Shown piece after piece: positions 4,428-14,340 of a DNA stretch of 41,983 bases. How positions within the stretch are numbered: the first letter of the stretch is position 1; each line of letters begins with the position of its first letter. The notes under the pieces are model-generated. The model was not told the origin of the DNA. It ran no database searches and saw nothing but the letters and a program-made list of their open reading frames with translations. The stretch comes from Acidimicrobiia bacterium (GTDB lineage Bacteria; Acidobacteriota; Vicinamibacteria; Vicinamibacterales; CAVVIG01). The stretch spans positions 1 to 41,983 of the forward strand of contig VFZL01000036.1 in assembly GCA_016871175.1 (NCBI GenBank), given 5' to 3'. Both the position numbers and the translations under genes were made by a program.

Positions 4428-4703
4428 GTGCAACAGCTTGGCATCAGTCTGTTCATGCGCTCGCCGTTTTCACAAGCGGGGGACGGCGGAGCCGCGCGAT
4501 ACGGCGTCTGCGACTTCCTCTACTCGCACGCCAGCATCGCGAGCGATGGCAGCGATAAGCCGTGTTACTCGTCGATCCTACCCTCGCGCGCCAGTGCTCC
4601 GAACGGGACGTTGCGTACGCTGTGGAACAGTGCCGAAATGCAGAGGCTGCGTCGTGACCACGACACACATCGTGCCCCTCGTCCTGCAAGACCTGCCACA
4701 TGA
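4428..4703 (+). pseudogene. Remnant of a radical-SAM/SPASM protein C-terminus
   Basis: A 91-codon frame contains CDFLYSHASIASDGSDKPCY and then NGTLRTLWNSAEMQRLRRDH. This is the pattern of a SPASM domain: a Cys, an IxxDGxxxPC segment, then GxxxxLxxxWNSxxxxxLR. The rest of the enzyme, including the CxxxCxxC radical-SAM site, is missing, and the final Cys pair falls in another frame (RCGTVPKCRGC). No start signal is visible. It lies directly before the GT-C-like membrane gene, where SPASM enzymes and glycosyltransferases often co-occur, so it may be the end of a former neighbour. Confidence 0.42.
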
Positions 4704-4856
4704 CACTGCGTGGCAGAGACACGCTCGCCAGACGGAGTGAGCGGTTCATCCGCGGGCGACGCACGAAAAACGAGCGGATGCCAACCCACCGAGGGCCGTG
4801 GGCGCGCTAAGTTCTTGCATATGACCCCCGCCCCTCCTATGTTAGTAGGGCTTCTC

Positions 4857-6881
4857 ATGGCTCACTTGCGCGCCGGTTGGCTCACCGACCTGACGCCGCT
4901 CGCTTGGTTCGCCTTCTACGCAGCGGTGGCAGTGGCCGTCACCTGGCCACTCGCGGGCCACCTCCGCTCGACCCTCCTCGGATCACCCAGCGGCGATACC
5001 GGCGTCTACGTCTGGAACCTCTGGATCTTCCGCCACGAGCTGGTCGAGAAGGGACACCTCCCGTTCTCGACCGACCATATCTTCGGCTACACCGGCGGCG
5101 CCGATTTCTCGCTTCACAACTTCACACCGATCGCCGGTCTGCTCGCCACGCCGCTCATCCCCCATGTGGGCGTCGTGGCCGCGTTCAACATCCTCCTCAT
5201 GGTGATGTTGACCTTGACCGGCGTGAGCGTGTTCGCGCTCGGGAAAACGTTGGGGCTCCGGAACTGGAGCGCAGCCCTCGCCGGCACGATGTTCATCGCG
5301 TCACCCGTGATAACGGCCCGAGAGACCGCGCACTTCAGTCTCGTCACCGCGTGGTCACTTCCCCTCTTCGTGTTGTTGTTCCTCCGCCTGATGGAACGGC
5401 CGACGCTGGCGACGGCGGTGCTCGTCGGCGTCGCCGTCGCGGCAGCGCACTACTCGGACACGTACTACGGCGTCTACTGCCTGCTGATCGGCGTCTTCGT
5501 GGTGGCGTGGCGCTTCGTCCGCATCGAGCGGCGCGCGCCGGCGCCGACATGCGATGCTCGCGCCATCCGTATCGTCGATCGTACGCTGGTGATGGTCGCC
5601 GTGTTCCTCGCGTGGCGGCTCATCACCGGTTGGACCGAGGTCTCCATCGGATCGATCCGATTTTCGATAAAAACGCTCTACACGCCGACACTGTTAGCCG
5701 TGCTGCTCGGCGCGACACGGGTGTGGCTGACGTTCCGACCTGTCGCGCGGCTGCACGATCCGACCGACCGCCTACCGGTCTTCATTCGCTTGGGGGGAGT
5801 CTCGGTTGCGACGTGTCTGGCCCTGATAGCGCCGGTCCTCGTCGGCCTCGTCCAACGGTTCTTCCAGGGGCGCCTGCCTGAGACGCCGCTGCCCTGGCGA
5901 AGCAGTCCCCGTGGCGTCGACTTGCTCGCGTATGTCGTGCCCAACCCGAATCATGCCTGGTTTGGACGGTGGACGGAGCGCTGGTGGTTGCCCCCCAACG
6001 CCGACGCGTTCCCGGAATTAGTCGCCTCCTTCTCGATCGTCGGGCTGGTGTGCATCGGCGTCGCGGCCTGGCGACGCTGGCTTCCCTCGTTCTGGGTTGC
6101 CTTCACCGCGTTATTCGGACTGCTGTCGCTCGGACCATTCATCCACATCGCGGGGGTCAACACGACGGTGATCGCGCCGTGGGCGATCCTGCGCTACGTG
6201 CCGGTGCTCGGGCTGGCCCGCTCTCCGTCCCGATTCGCCGTGCTGGCCAGCCTAGGGCTGTCGCTGCTCCTCGCCTTCGCGCTCGAGGCCTGGCGGCGCA
6301 ACAGCCCGCGGGCGTGGCGGCGCCTGGCGATGCCCGTCCTGTTGTTGCTCGCGCTCGAGGGGTTCCCAGGTCCACGTCACCTCTACTCCGCCAATATCCC
6401 GCCGGTGTACCAGCATCTCGCCTTGACGCCGAAAGACGGACGCATCCTCACTCTGCCGACCGGCATTCGCGACGGCGTGTCGTCGCTTGGCAACTTCTCG
6501 GCGTCGAATCTGTTCTTTCAAACGGCCCACCGCCATCCAATCGAGGGAGGCTATCTGTCGCGTGTGTCGCCATCGAGGAAAACCGCGAGCGCGCGAGCGC
6601 CCATGCTTGTCGCGCTGCTTGCGCTCAGCGACCAAGAGACGACGCTCACGGACGCCGAAGTCGAGGCCGCCCGGTGGTCGCGCGACACGTTTCTTGCGTA
6701 CTCCTGCGTGAGGCACGTGGTCATCGACAAGGATCATGCCTCGAGCCGTCTGCGCGCGTTCGCGATTGAGGCGCTGCATCTGGTACCCGTCATGGAGGAC
6801 CAGCATCACCAATGGCTCGTGCCTCTCGGCCCCCCGCCCTGCCAGAAGCCGAGACCCTTCTACGAAAGCGGCAACAACTGA
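4857..6881 (+). CDS. Large multi-pass membrane protein, GT-C glycosyltransferase-like
   Basis: About 674 residues from ATG 4857 (GTAGGG 6 nt upstream); ATG 4821 is an alternative start. It has 11-13 hydrophobic helices. After the first helix comes LLGSPSGDTGVYVWNLWIF, where an Asp at the first extracytoplasmic loop matches the position of the catalytic acid in GT-C fold lipid-dependent glycosyltransferases. A second block, PNPNHAWFGRW, and a conserved LGLARSPSRFAVLASLGLSL also fit uncharacterised GT-C-like or YfhO-like proteins. The C-terminal 170 residues form a soluble domain. The likely role is transfer of sugars from a polyprenyl carrier on the periplasmic side, inferred only from topology and the acidic loop. 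No glycan cluster surrounds it. Confidence 0.72.
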   Translation: MAHLRAGWLTDLTPLAWFAFYAAVAVAVTWPLAGHLRSTLLGSPSGDTGVYVWNLWIFRHELVEKGHLPFSTDHIFGYTGGADFSLHNFTPIAGLLATPLIPHVGVVAAFNILLMVMLTLTGVSVFALGKTLGLRNWSAALAGTMFIASPVITARETAHFSLVTAWSLPLFVLLFLRLMERPTLATAVLVGVAVAAAHYSDTYYGVYCLLIGVFVVAWRFVRIERRAPAPTCDARAIRIVDRTLVMVAVFLAWRLITGWTEVSIGSIRFSIKTLYTPTLLAVLLGATRVWLTFRPVARLHDPTDRLPVFIRLGGVSVATCLALIAPVLVGLVQRFFQGRLPETPLPWRSSPRGVDLLAYVVPNPNHAWFGRWTERWWLPPNADAFPELVASFSIVGLVCIGVAAWRRWLPSFWVAFTALFGLLSLGPFIHIAGVNTTVIAPWAILRYVPVLGLARSPSRFAVLASLGLSLLLAFALEAWRRNSPRAWRRLAMPVLLLLALEGFPGPRHLYSANIPPVYQHLALTPKDGRILTLPTGIRDGVSSLGNFSASNLFFQTAHRHPIEGGYLSRVSPSRKTASARAPMLVALLALSDQETTLTDAEVEAARWSRDTFLAYSCVRHVVIDKDHASSRLRAFAIEALHLVPVMEDQHHQWLVPLGPPPCQKPRPFYESGNN

Positions 6882-10621: not shown

Positions 10622-10761
10622 GTGCGGCGGCAGAGTAGCCCGCTCGAACGGGGGGCAGGGGCGTACGGCGCGAGTGGGTCCCCATGTCCGTGTTCGAGTC
10701 CATGGCGTTGGAGGCGCTCGGCCCGAGTTCGACAGCGCTGCAGCGGTCCAAGGAGCTGAAC

Positions 10762-11796
10762 ATGAGCAGAATGCGCCGTGCACTCGTTCGTACTGCGTGT
10801 GTCGTCCTGGCAGGACCGGTGCTCGTTGCACAGCAGAGTGCACCAGCACCAACTGCCCCTGTGCCGGCCGGCCTCCCCGACTGGGCCTACACCCCTCCCC
10901 CCCCGCCAGGGTCACCGCCAGCGCCGACGGCTCTGCCTGCCGACGACAATACGGTGATCAAGATCACCGGGAGCGATCGGACCATGCCGCGGAGCGCCAT
11001 GCGCACCGGGCGCGGTGAGATCCCCGACTGGCACCCCGGCGATCGCCGTGGCCAGCTGCCACTAATCGTCAGGAATGGCAAGGAAGGAGTGCTTCCCTGC
11101 GGTCTGTGCCACCTCGCTGACGGGGCAGGGCGTCCGGAGAACGCTCCCGTGAACGGATTGCACCCGACCTACTTCCTTCAGCAGATGGAGGACTTCAAGA
11201 ACGGTCTTCGACGGAGCGCCGACCCCCGCAAGGCCAACACCAACATGATGATTTCGTACACCAAGGCGGCGACGCCCGACGAGTTGAAGGCCGCGGCGGA
11301 GTACTTCGCCGCGCAACCGTATCCGAAGCGGATCAGGGTGATCGAATCGCGCACGGCTCCCAAGGTGCGCCTCCAAGGAGGCATGCACATGGCGATTCCG
11401 CAGAACGAAGGCGGCGGCATGGAACCGATGGGCGACCACCTGGTGGAAGTGCCCGACGACAACCTCCGCGCGGAAGTACGCGACACGCGGATGGGGTGGA
11501 CGGTCTACGCGCCGACCGGCACGCTGAAGAAGGGCCAGCAGCTCGCCGCCAAGTACCAGTGCGGCGTCTGCCACGGCCGGAATCTGGAAGGCCTCGGTCC
11601 GGTGCCGCCTCTGGCTGGCCGATCGCCCAGCTACGCCACGCGCCAACTGTTCGATATGAAGACCGGAACGCGCCGCGGCCCGTGGTCGGAGCTGATGCAG
11701 ACCATCGTGCGCGAGATGTCTGTGCAGGACATGATGGCCGTCACCGCCTATGCCGCGTCGCGCGCGCCCTCCGAGAGCGCGCGCGGCACCCGTTAA
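10762..11796 (+). CDS. Secreted dihaem c-type cytochrome
   Basis: A 344-residue protein from ATG 10762 (AAGGAG 6 nt upstream). A signal peptide (residues 1-25) is followed by a Pro-rich linker with DWAYTPPPPPG. There are two covalent haem sites: CGLCH (113-117) in a domain with LPLIVRNGKEG before it and ADGAGRPEN after it, and CGVCH (267-271) in a second class-I-like domain. Methionines near YFLQQM and in the final helices are possible axial ligands. It should work in periplasmic electron transfer; the partner is unknown. A degraded paralogue lies at 24986-25526 and has the same WAY linker and RQLFD-FNTG tail, so this architecture was duplicated in the region. Confidence 0.85.
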   Translation: MSRMRRALVRTACVVLAGPVLVAQQSAPAPTAPVPAGLPDWAYTPPPPPGSPPAPTALPADDNTVIKITGSDRTMPRSAMRTGRGEIPDWHPGDRRGQLPLIVRNGKEGVLPCGLCHLADGAGRPENAPVNGLHPTYFLQQMEDFKNGLRRSADPRKANTNMMISYTKAATPDELKAAAEYFAAQPYPKRIRVIESRTAPKVRLQGGMHMAIPQNEGGGMEPMGDHLVEVPDDNLRAEVRDTRMGWTVYAPTGTLKKGQQLAAKYQCGVCHGRNLEGLGPVPPLAGRSPSYATRQLFDMKTGTRRGPWSELMQTIVREMSVQDMMAVTAYAASRAPSESARGTR

Positions 11797-13582
11797 CCTG
11801 CCGGGAAGCCGCACGGCTGGTCGAACATCCAAAACGCTGCCGACGTGCGTCAGGCGTCGGCAGCGCCGTCAGAAGCGCAACGTAGCGCTCAACTCCACGT
11901 TCCTGGCCGGCAGAATCGATGTCGGCACAAGGAAGTTCGGCCCGGACAGCTGCGTCAGCGTGACGGTGGTGTTCGCGTTCAGCGCCGGGCTCGTAGCGCA
12001 GGTTGCCGTTCGTGTCGCGCCACTGGAACGTGGTCACCAGCGGCACATTCCGGTTCGCCATCTGGAGCTCGTCGACATAGCGCATGTGCGGGTAGCGGCC
12101 CCATCCGCCTTTGAGCAGCGTCTTGCCGTCGCCCGTGAGGTCGTACGCCGCGTTGACGCGGGGCGACAGGGGATTCCACACCTTGAAATTGGTCCCGGGG
12201 AAACAGGCTGCCGGATAGATTCCGCTGAAGGGGCTGGGTGCCTCCACTCGGCACTGCTCGCGAATGAAGCCGCGATCGTGCGCGTACCGGACGCCCAGAT
12301 TCAGCGTCAGCCGGCGGCCGATCACCGACCGATCCGCCGGCACGTCGTGCATCCGCTCGCGCAGCTGACCGAGTGGGATGTGCGCGCTGTCGCGGATCCA
12401 CTTCTGCGCTCGCTCCGACGCGCCGCGCACGTCGAGCAGGAACGGGGACGGGGACGCCGAGAGACGTGCGGCGACGACGCCAGGAGCGAGCCGTTCCGTC
12501 GAGGTGATGAGATCGGGGCGATCCGCGACGCTGCTGAGCCCGTGTTCGAGATAGCCAATCACGTGATCAAAACCGATTCGTCCGAGCCGCAGCGCCGATT
12601 CGGTCTCGGCGCCCGGATCGGCGATGATCATAATGGGGCGGTCTCGCGTCAGGACCGTGCCGGCCCATGTGGCGTACTGCCCCACCAAGCCGACATTGAT
12701 ACTGCCGAACAGGTGCGCGGCGCCGAACTCGACCGGATCGCGCGAGTCGAGGAGCTGTGCGCCGGCGGCTGCTTTCGCGAGCACCTCAGCGAGAGACAAC
12801 GGCTTCAGCTCTCGCGACAGGGCCACCTCGAGGGTCGGGCGTTCGCGGCTATTAAGCACCGCGTCGTAGGTGAAGTATGGTGGCGCCTCCGGCTGATCAG
12901 CAGTCACCAGGTCGACAAAGACCGCCTTGGACATCGGTTGGAGCGCGTAATTCAATCGTCGCTGCTCACCGATCGTGGACACCGTCTCGCGCGACAGGGC
13001 CTTGCCGCATAACGAACCAGCGCCGTGGGCCGGGTAGACGAGAGTGGGATCTGGCAGCGGCAGGAGCTTCGCGTGCAGCGAGTCGTACAGCAGCCCGCCC
13101 AGCTGCGTGGCCGACCAGCCCAACGCCGCCCGCAAGTCCGGCCGCCCGACGTCACCCACGAAGAGTGTGTCGCCGGTCAGTACCGCGTAGGGTGTATCGG
13201 CGCCGACCTCGAGGTCGTAGACGACCAGCGAGATCGACTCCGGTGTGTGACCGGGCGTATGCAGGGCCACGAGGCGCACACGGCCGAACTCCAGTACTCC
13301 GCCATCCGCAAGCGCTCTGAACGCGTACTCGGTCTGCGCCTGGCTCGATAGGCAAATCGTGGCACCAACGCGGTCGCGCAGCTCGAGGTGGCCTGCCACA
13401 AAGTCGGCGTGCAAGTGGGTGAGTACCACATACGCGATGCGCAACCCCTGGTCGGCTGCACATTGCAGATAACAGTCGACGTCGCGTTGGGGGTCCACCA
13501 CAGCCGCCACGCGCGTCTTCTCGTCGCTAATGAGGTAGGACGCATGAGCAAGACAATTGAGATAGAACTGTTTCAAGATCAC
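11741..13582 (-). CDS. MBL-fold/rhodanese protein fused in frame to a TonB-receptor tail (chimeric ORF)
   Basis: The first 419 residues are a persulfide-dioxygenase-like metallo-beta-lactamase with rhodanese domains. Metal motifs are THLHAD (55-60), HTPGHT, GDTLF and PAHGAGS; a rhodanese domain starts at AQLLDSRDPVEF, with Asp-Pro where the active Cys would be (IMIIADPGAE). A second rhodanese domain begins at FLLDVRGASE and runs to HDVPADRS (413-419), just before its expected catalytic Cys loop. From residue 420 the sequence is VIGRRLTLNLGVRYAHD, the barrel of a TonB-dependent receptor, and it ends in out-of-frame sequence. The metal site may work, but sulfur transfer by the rhodanese domains should not. 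The start is GTG 13582, divergent from a peroxiredoxin. Confidence 0.75.
   Translation of the reverse strand: MILKQFYLNCLAHASYLISDEKTRVAAVVDPQRDVDCYLQCAADQGLRIAYVVLTHLHADFVAGHLELRDRVGATICLSSQAQTEYAFRALADGGVLEFGRVRLVALHTPGHTPESISLVVYDLEVGADTPYAVLTGDTLFVGDVGRPDLRAALGWSATQLGGLLYDSLHAKLLPLPDPTLVYPAHGAGSLCGKALSRETVSTIGEQRRLNYALQPMSKAVFVDLVTADQPEAPPYFTYDAVLNSRERPTLEVALSRELKPLSLAEVLAKAAAGAQLLDSRDPVEFGAAHLFGSINVGLVGQYATWAGTVLTRDRPIMIIADPGAETESALRLGRIGFDHVIGYLEHGLSSVADRPDLITSTERLAPGVVAARLSASPSPFLLDVRGASERAQKWIRDSAHIPLGQLRERMHDVPADRSVIGRRLTLNLGVRYAHDRGFIREQCRVEAPSPFSGIYPAACFPGTNFKVWNPLSPRVNAAYDLTGDGKTLLKGGWGRYPHMRYVDELQMANRNVPLVTTFQWRDTNGNLRYEPGAEREHHRHADAAVRAELPCADIDSAGQERGVERYVALLTALPTPDARRQRFGCSTSRAASRQVNGCRARSRRARATRHRR
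11831..11865 (-). terminator. Rho-independent terminator of the minus-strand receptor fragment
   Basis: CGCTGCCGACG (11835-11845) and CGTCGGCAGCG (11855-11865) form a perfect 11-bp stem with a 9-nt loop. Read on the minus strand it is followed immediately by TTTT (11834-11831). It lies 3 nt after the frame-corrected stop of the TonB-dependent receptor remnant (11869-11871), so it is probably the original receptor terminator and now ends the chimeric transcript. Confidence 0.75.
11869..12328 (-). pseudogene. 3' fragment of an Oar-like TonB-dependent receptor gene
   Basis: Minus-strand sequence from about 12325 encodes the end of a receptor barrel: VIGRRLTLNLGVRYAHD, FPGTNFKVWNPLSPRVNAAY and LLKGGWGRYPHMRYVDEL. 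Near 11985, after LRYEPGA, the frame shifts. In the next frame LNANTTVTLTQLSGPNF continues to NVELSATLRF and a stop at 11869-11871. A terminal Phe after a beta-strand is the normal outer-membrane barrel ending, so this is the true C-terminus. About 150 of the usual 1,000 or so residues remain, and the plug and most of the barrel are gone. The fragment is fused to the rhodanese gene and keeps its own terminator. Confidence 0.72.
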
Positions 13583-13609
13583 GATTCACGACCGTCGCTC
13601 TGACCGGGC

Positions 13610-13617
13610 AGTATAAT
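13610..13617. promoter_or_regulatory. Overlapping divergent -10 elements between the MBL and peroxiredoxin genes
   Basis: The sequence AGTATAAT reads TATAAT on the plus strand (13612-13617), towards the peroxiredoxin gene. It reads TATACT on the minus strand (13615-13610), towards the MBL/rhodanese gene. Both cannot be bound by RNA polymerase at once if both are real. The -35 regions are poor on both strands. Confidence 0.45.
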
Positions 13618-13662
13618 CGCGCTCCGCGACAACCGCATCGACGTTCATCAGGAGGGATGACC

Positions 13663-14340
13663 ATGGCCACCACAACCGGCCCGCTTCCGATTGGTAGCGA
13701 CGCACCAGACTTCGAGGCGATGACCACCGAAGGCCCGATTCGCTTCCACGAATGGCTCGGCAACTCGTGGGGCGTGCTCTTCTCTCACCCGAAAGACTTC
13801 ACGCCGGTCTGCACGACCGAGCTTGGCTACATGGCGCGCATCAAGCCAGACTTCGACAGGCGTGGGGTCAAGATCATCGGCCTGAGCGTTGACCCGGTCG
13901 AGAGCCATCGCGGCTGGTCGAAGGACATCGCGGAGACGCAAGGGTACGCGCCCAATTACCCGATGATCGCGGACTTGGACCTCAAGGTGTCGAAGCTCTA
14001 TGGCATGCTGCCGGCCGAGGCAGGGGAAACCTGCGAAGGGCGCACCGCCCTGGACAACCAGACGGTGCGTAACGTGTACGTGATCGGGCCTGACAAGAAG
14101 ATCAAGTTGGTCCTCTCCTACCCGATGAGCACCGGGCGGAATTTCGACGAAGTGTTGCGCGTGATTGACTCGATACAGCTGACGGCAAAACACAAGGTGG
14201 CCACGCCGGTGAACTGGCGCGACGGCGACAAGGTGATCATCCTGCCGGCGGTTCAAGAGGCCGAGGCGCGGGAGCGCTTCCCACACGGATGGGATGCCCC
14301 GAAACCGTACCTACGGTACGTACCTCAGCCGAGAGACTGA
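13663..14340 (+). CDS. Peroxiredoxin, Prx6-like (1-Cys group)
   Basis: This 225-residue protein reduces peroxides through a peroxidatic cysteine. The catalytic loop is SHPKDFTPVCTTE with Cys50. The only other cysteine is in GETCEGRT, away from the usual resolving position, which fits the Prx6 group, as do the C-terminal extension PVNWRDGDKVIILP and the total length (about 210-230 in the family). ATG 13663 is preferred because AGGAGG lies 7 nt upstream; the ATG at 13657 is too close to it. It is cytoplasmic (no signal). Divergent pairing with a persulfide-dioxygenase-like gene suggests joint handling of peroxide and reactive sulfur species. Confidence 0.92.
   Translation: MATTTGPLPIGSDAPDFEAMTTEGPIRFHEWLGNSWGVLFSHPKDFTPVCTTELGYMARIKPDFDRRGVKIIGLSVDPVESHRGWSKDIAETQGYAPNYPMIADLDLKVSKLYGMLPAEAGETCEGRTALDNQTVRNVYVIGPDKKIKLVLSYPMSTGRNFDEVLRVIDSIQLTAKHKVATPVNWRDGDKVIILPAVQEAEARERFPHGWDAPKPYLRYVPQPRD

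Follow-up and report, generated by a model that had tools for sequence, protein, structure and literature searches.

The locus described here raises the question of whether one open reading frame that spans an enzyme and a piece of an outer-membrane receptor encodes a real fusion protein or is what remains of two broken genes. The analysed window – 41,983 nucleotides – is the complete contig C36 of a draft genome (4.44 Mb, 85 contigs, 96.8% complete) from an uncultured acidobacterium-like microbe, which by its MBL/rhodanese enzyme lies nearest, among named genomes, to Acidobacteria MAGs from groundwater and aquifers (69–72% identity). The fusion ORF lies at 11741–13582 on the minus strand, starts with GTG at 13582 and encodes 613 amino acids. 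A sequence-only reading had described it as an MBL/rhodanese gene joined in frame to TonB-receptor sequence, and Pfam matches bear this out, with Lactamase_B (residues 14–186), Rhodanese (266–352) and OMP_b-brl_4 (422–524) sharing one frame. We think it probable that the locus is a gene remnant left by two small minus-strand deletions, its possible product being a dioxygenase core and its receptor pieces scrap. Ordinary gene decay is the most likely description of the locus.

The enzyme half comprises a metallo-beta-lactamase (persulfide-dioxygenase-like) domain (12965–13582, minus strand, from the GTG start), a first rhodanese-like domain without cysteine (12527–12787, minus) and, by alignment and codon comparison, the first half of a second rhodanese domain (12323–12499, minus). 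Our family search covered 27 genomes, including the window's own, and found orthologues at 62–70% identity in 17 others. We aligned 16 of these (L010–L025), leaving out one split over two frames (L026) and a 49-residue fragment near a contig end (G024, 78% identical), and added three orthologues from named genomes (L095–L097) to give 19 comparison sequences. All 20 sequences in the alignment, the window protein among them, have the expected iron ligands H56, H112 and D138, so named after the ligand roles in ETHE1. The earlier suggestion that the metal site may survive is thus upheld to the extent that all three expected ligands are retained.

The 16 family orthologues are 462–478 residues long and all carry a CAGGYRS motif in the second rhodanese domain; of the full set of 19 comparison sequences only L097, which is cut by its own contig end, does not show it. 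The window protein departs from the orthologues after about V420, just ahead of this loop. The alignment therefore places the cut where it had been proposed, inside the second rhodanese immediately before the active-site loop. Residues 1–419 had been assigned to the enzyme; alignment to 3tp9 extends that assignment by one residue, to V420. The closest solved structures by sequence are 3tp9 (residues 1–420, E 1e-84) and 3r2u. It is correct that both rhodanese sites lack cysteine, but in the first domain this is mostly ancestral and not damage, because 18 of the 19 aligned orthologues also lack cysteine at that loop column, mostly reading ADPG. The sole aligned orthologue with a cysteine there has CALG (L025; locus L048, G008:C55). 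Elsewhere in the window's own genome, rhodanese matches over the Pfam cut-off occur in two places, on C11 (one) and C18 (two).

The enzyme half resembles CstB-type persulfide dioxygenase-sulfurtransferases, represented by sequence by 3tp9 and 3r2u. Like these it has an MBL dioxygenase with the H, H and D metal motifs followed by a central rhodanese-like domain without cysteine, the ‘pseudo-rhodanese’ that defines CstB. It differs in that the C-terminal rhodanese is halved before the cysteine-bearing loop. The literature describes CstB as a PDO-rhodanese fusion (PMC12856154), as converting two persulfides into thiosulfate, with PDO and rhodanese fused in some bacteria (PMC9774590), and as a persulfide dioxygenase-sulfur transferase (PMC5480029).

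Downstream of the enzyme, the window retains two separate pieces of a receptor. The first, a barrel piece (11981–12322, minus), is 60% identical to a receptor on G095:C114, where it corresponds to residues 586–698 of 1021. It has matches at E≤1e-20 in 27 of 193 genomes of the class, including its own, and 60% is the best identity outside that genome. Most receptor homologues have open frames of 956–1053 residues; the barrel piece maps to about residues 546–709 in 17 of the 18 measured and to residues 758–871 in L085, whose open frame is longer. The second, a C-terminal piece (11869–11985, minus), matches the last ~37 residues of receptor homologues, ends in NVELSATLRF followed by TGA, and has a GC content by codon position of 0.50/0.50/0.89 in the receptor frame. 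Alignment to homologues indicates that 267–290 receptor residues are absent between the two pieces. Another receptor of the same clade in this genome is frameshifted at a seven-G run (L073 about 4465–4502; G000:C3 about 74465–74500), which makes it either a recent pseudogene or a sequencing error.

The C-terminal piece is in a different frame from the fusion. The receptor stop at 11871–11869 lies off the fusion frame (13582−11871=1711, not a multiple of 3), and the ORF, which had been thought to end at 11869 with the receptor's own terminator, in fact reads past this point to 11741. Its open codons comprise 420 from the enzyme, 114 from the receptor and then an out-of-frame tail of 79 plus a stop (11741–11980, minus), which has a GC content by codon position of 0.77/0.65/0.62 and is without a coding-like base pattern. 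The assignment of everything from residue 420 onwards to the barrel consequently holds for ~114 residues and fails beyond them, where the fusion leaves the receptor frame; the second join, inside the receptor remnant, had been overlooked. TonB-dependent receptors with an OMP_b-brl_4 barrel share with the window two barrel pieces and a C-terminal F. In contrast to them, the window has neither plug nor full barrel, and its C-terminal piece is out of frame, so that the terminal strand with its aromatic residue is encoded in the DNA but lies outside the translated fusion. Only ~114 and ~37 of ~1000 receptor residues are retained, and because these hold no plug or complete barrel, no outer-membrane barrel product is expected.

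A hairpin follows the receptor stop (11833–11867, minus; −24.8 kcal/mol, z −3.1), and only 1 of 200 shuffled sequences folds as well. The stem-loop previously placed at 11831–11865 is therefore present at about these positions. Its proposed role as a terminator with a T-tract receives less support: only four consecutive T lie downstream, and a consensus terminator scan left the hairpin unflagged, though that scan allows loops of up to 8 bases and this loop has 9.

We compared the codons flanking both joins with homologues. At join 1 (12320–12328, minus) the last enzyme codon is about GTG 12325–12323 and the receptor begins at about ATC 12322. The window reads GAT CGG TCG GTG on the enzyme side and ATC GGC CGC CGG CTG on the receptor side, against GAT CGC CCG GTG CTC GTG TAC TGC in an orthologous enzyme (L095) and ACC ATC GGG CGT CGG in a homologous receptor (L079). 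This confirms the position and the in-frame nature of the first join as originally read. Join 2 (11978–11985, minus) is frame-shifting and internal to the receptor; its left side resembles GCC GGC GAG (L085), and its right side resembles AAC GCG CTC AAC or ATC CTG AAC GCG AAC ACC (L080, L085). The inferred overlap here is about 3 nt (GCG), and the homologues suggest a shared stretch of about 3–4 bases at each join. In the retained sequence, no direct repeat has one copy at the first join and another at the second, although deleted partner copies would be invisible to such a search. The first join, searched as DNA, had no matches in viral contigs. Recombination with another receptor copy in the same genome was considered and rejected, the closest copy being 50–51% identical.

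The three pieces remain in parental order on one strand. We infer that the joins were made by deletions, as well as the order of these: one would have removed the end of the enzyme gene together with the front ~550–600 receptor residues, and the other about 267–290 residues within the receptor, shifting the frame. A single deletion fusing a cytoplasmic enzyme to a barrel segment had been proposed; deletion fits the data, whereas two joins require at least two changes, and the barrel product is lost from the account. Deletion-made gene fusions and pseudogenes are a known kind in bacteria. The window resembles them in its in-frame read-through into a broken neighbour and shows no essential difference from them; a literature search for such fusions returned nothing pertinent among the matches listed.

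The predicted product, if expressed, would consist of the dioxygenase core, the cysteine-less rhodanese-like domain, half a rhodanese and a disordered tail, with the receptor pieces forming no barrel. Such a protein would be expected to oxidise persulfide to sulfite but, lacking the second rhodanese, to be incapable of sulfur transfer. We built a structure model with 17 sequences, and its scores are poor (mean pLDDT 56.5, pTM 0.39); pLDDT falls below 50 for nearly all of residues 439–613 but also for enzyme stretches such as 181–217. The model thus agrees with a disordered tail without being proof of disorder.

We examined the dioxygenase core for signs of decay against the 16 family and three named-genome orthologues. 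The core has no stop, no frameshift and no excess of changes: of 155 columns in which the other 19 sequences all agree, it alters 3, and those 19 themselves alter 0–12, with the least-alike orthologues (L023, L024 and L025) altering 5, 9 and 12. The core looks normal, meaning that the event is recent or that the core is still used. This normality tells against a rival of our preferred reading – a fully dead pseudogene with the same deletion history, from which either nothing is expressed or the product is degraded at once. In favour of that rival, a protein that has lost half a domain and carries an unfolded tail is usually unstable. A dioxygenase-only version of the gene in G396 suggests that the core alone may be tolerated, though that gene is possibly a remnant too. 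We regard complete loss of function as possible but doubtful.

A wider survey took in 396 sampled genomes from the phylum, with four candidates per genome scored, and found the enzyme at E≤1e-70 in 117 of them, with 119 matches. Five matches stop before position 455 of the 465-residue query, namely the window (421), G101 (398), G396 (217) and two distant matches, G007 (443) and G534 (442). The window's truncation point is unique among the 119, and gene shortening itself is not. In G101 (L157 1789–3333, G101:C224), an in-frame insertion of roughly 50–60 residues interrupts the second rhodanese, after which the match resumes to 465; the contig also holds a 63-nt repeat in two copies. The G396 gene (L158 4544–5227, G396:C49) is a dioxygenase-only ORF of 227 amino acids that ends at a stop codon, with a PF03601 gene after it.

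Misassembly is another rival: one or both joins could come from the assembler or from chimeric reads, the organism's own genes being intact. The genome is a draft in 85 contigs, the two joins lie within 350 bases of each other, enzyme and receptor genes lie side by side in no relative, and the frameshifted receptor on C3 indicates that base errors or pseudogenes occur in this genome. Set against this, the homologue-implied overlap is only about 3–4 nt at either join, far shorter than an assembler's usual k-mer, and the pieces are colinear on the same strand. The missing parts were also not found on the other contigs of the bin, although unbinned contigs could still hold them. A query for the lost enzyme tail, made of an orthologue's final 56 residues, gave no match in the genome better than E 0.06; with 936 residues of the best homologue as query for the lost receptor head and middle, the genome's receptors (E≤1e-10) were at most 47% identical to it, so none resembles the lost parts. 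A search for intact versions of both genes had been suggested as a check; in the genome itself these searches found neither missing part, and relatives do carry intact enzymes. Together, the short overlaps, the colinear order and the failure to find the missing parts in the bin favour real deletions, making misassembly, on these sequence comparisons, the less likely explanation and in our estimate an improbable one.

We consider it quite improbable that the locus encodes a dioxygenase-only persulfide enzyme that has lost its sulfurtransferase half, gained a foreign tail and kept its function. If it does, the separate G396 gene would make rhodanese loss a recurring trend. Whatever the tail does, an active core would offer a natural test of whether such persulfide dioxygenases need a fused rhodanese. 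With an inactive core the locus would simply join the many that are decaying, and would caution against taking every open frame that spans two families for a designed fusion.

Very improbable is a working new protein in which the receptor-derived tail replaces the lost rhodanese half and selection keeps the fusion. In its favour are the in-frame first join, a core without excess changes, and the open run of 420 enzyme and 114 receptor codons. Against it, one join in three would be in frame by chance, the final 79 codons are frameshifted and not coding-like in base pattern, pLDDT is below 50 for nearly all of residues 439–613 (though in a model that is poor overall), and no other match in the phylum sample ends at this point. 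A designed enzyme-barrel fusion is rejected, since the window's match alone ends there among the 119 and its tail is out of frame.

The surroundings of the gene bear on its history. Among 12 family and four named-genome loci (L095–L098), no same-clade receptor lies near the enzyme gene (E≤1e-5), L097 ending at the gene so that its downstream side is unseen. This apparent absence of pairing counts against a conserved ancestral pair, and the ancestral gene order in our preferred deletion reading is assumed, because no relative pairs the enzyme with a same-clade receptor. The convergent neighbour is a cytochrome c-like gene (10684–11796, plus; Pfam) with homologues elsewhere. A relative with the ancestral order was sought without success: no such receptor lies near the enzyme, and the loci around the cytochrome homologues yielded a single distant receptor, in L069. 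We found no genome close enough to date the event. Farther away, a 723-amino-acid ORF at 4710–6881 (plus) has no Pfam match at E≤0.001.

The divergent neighbour is a peroxiredoxin (AhpC/1-Cys Prx by Pfam; 13657–14340, plus). A peroxiredoxin also adjoins the enzyme gene in G023 (73% identity) and, judged from translation, in G101. The two genes are thus side by side in three genomes (window 13583–13656; L051/L071; L141), in divergent, upstream and downstream arrangements.
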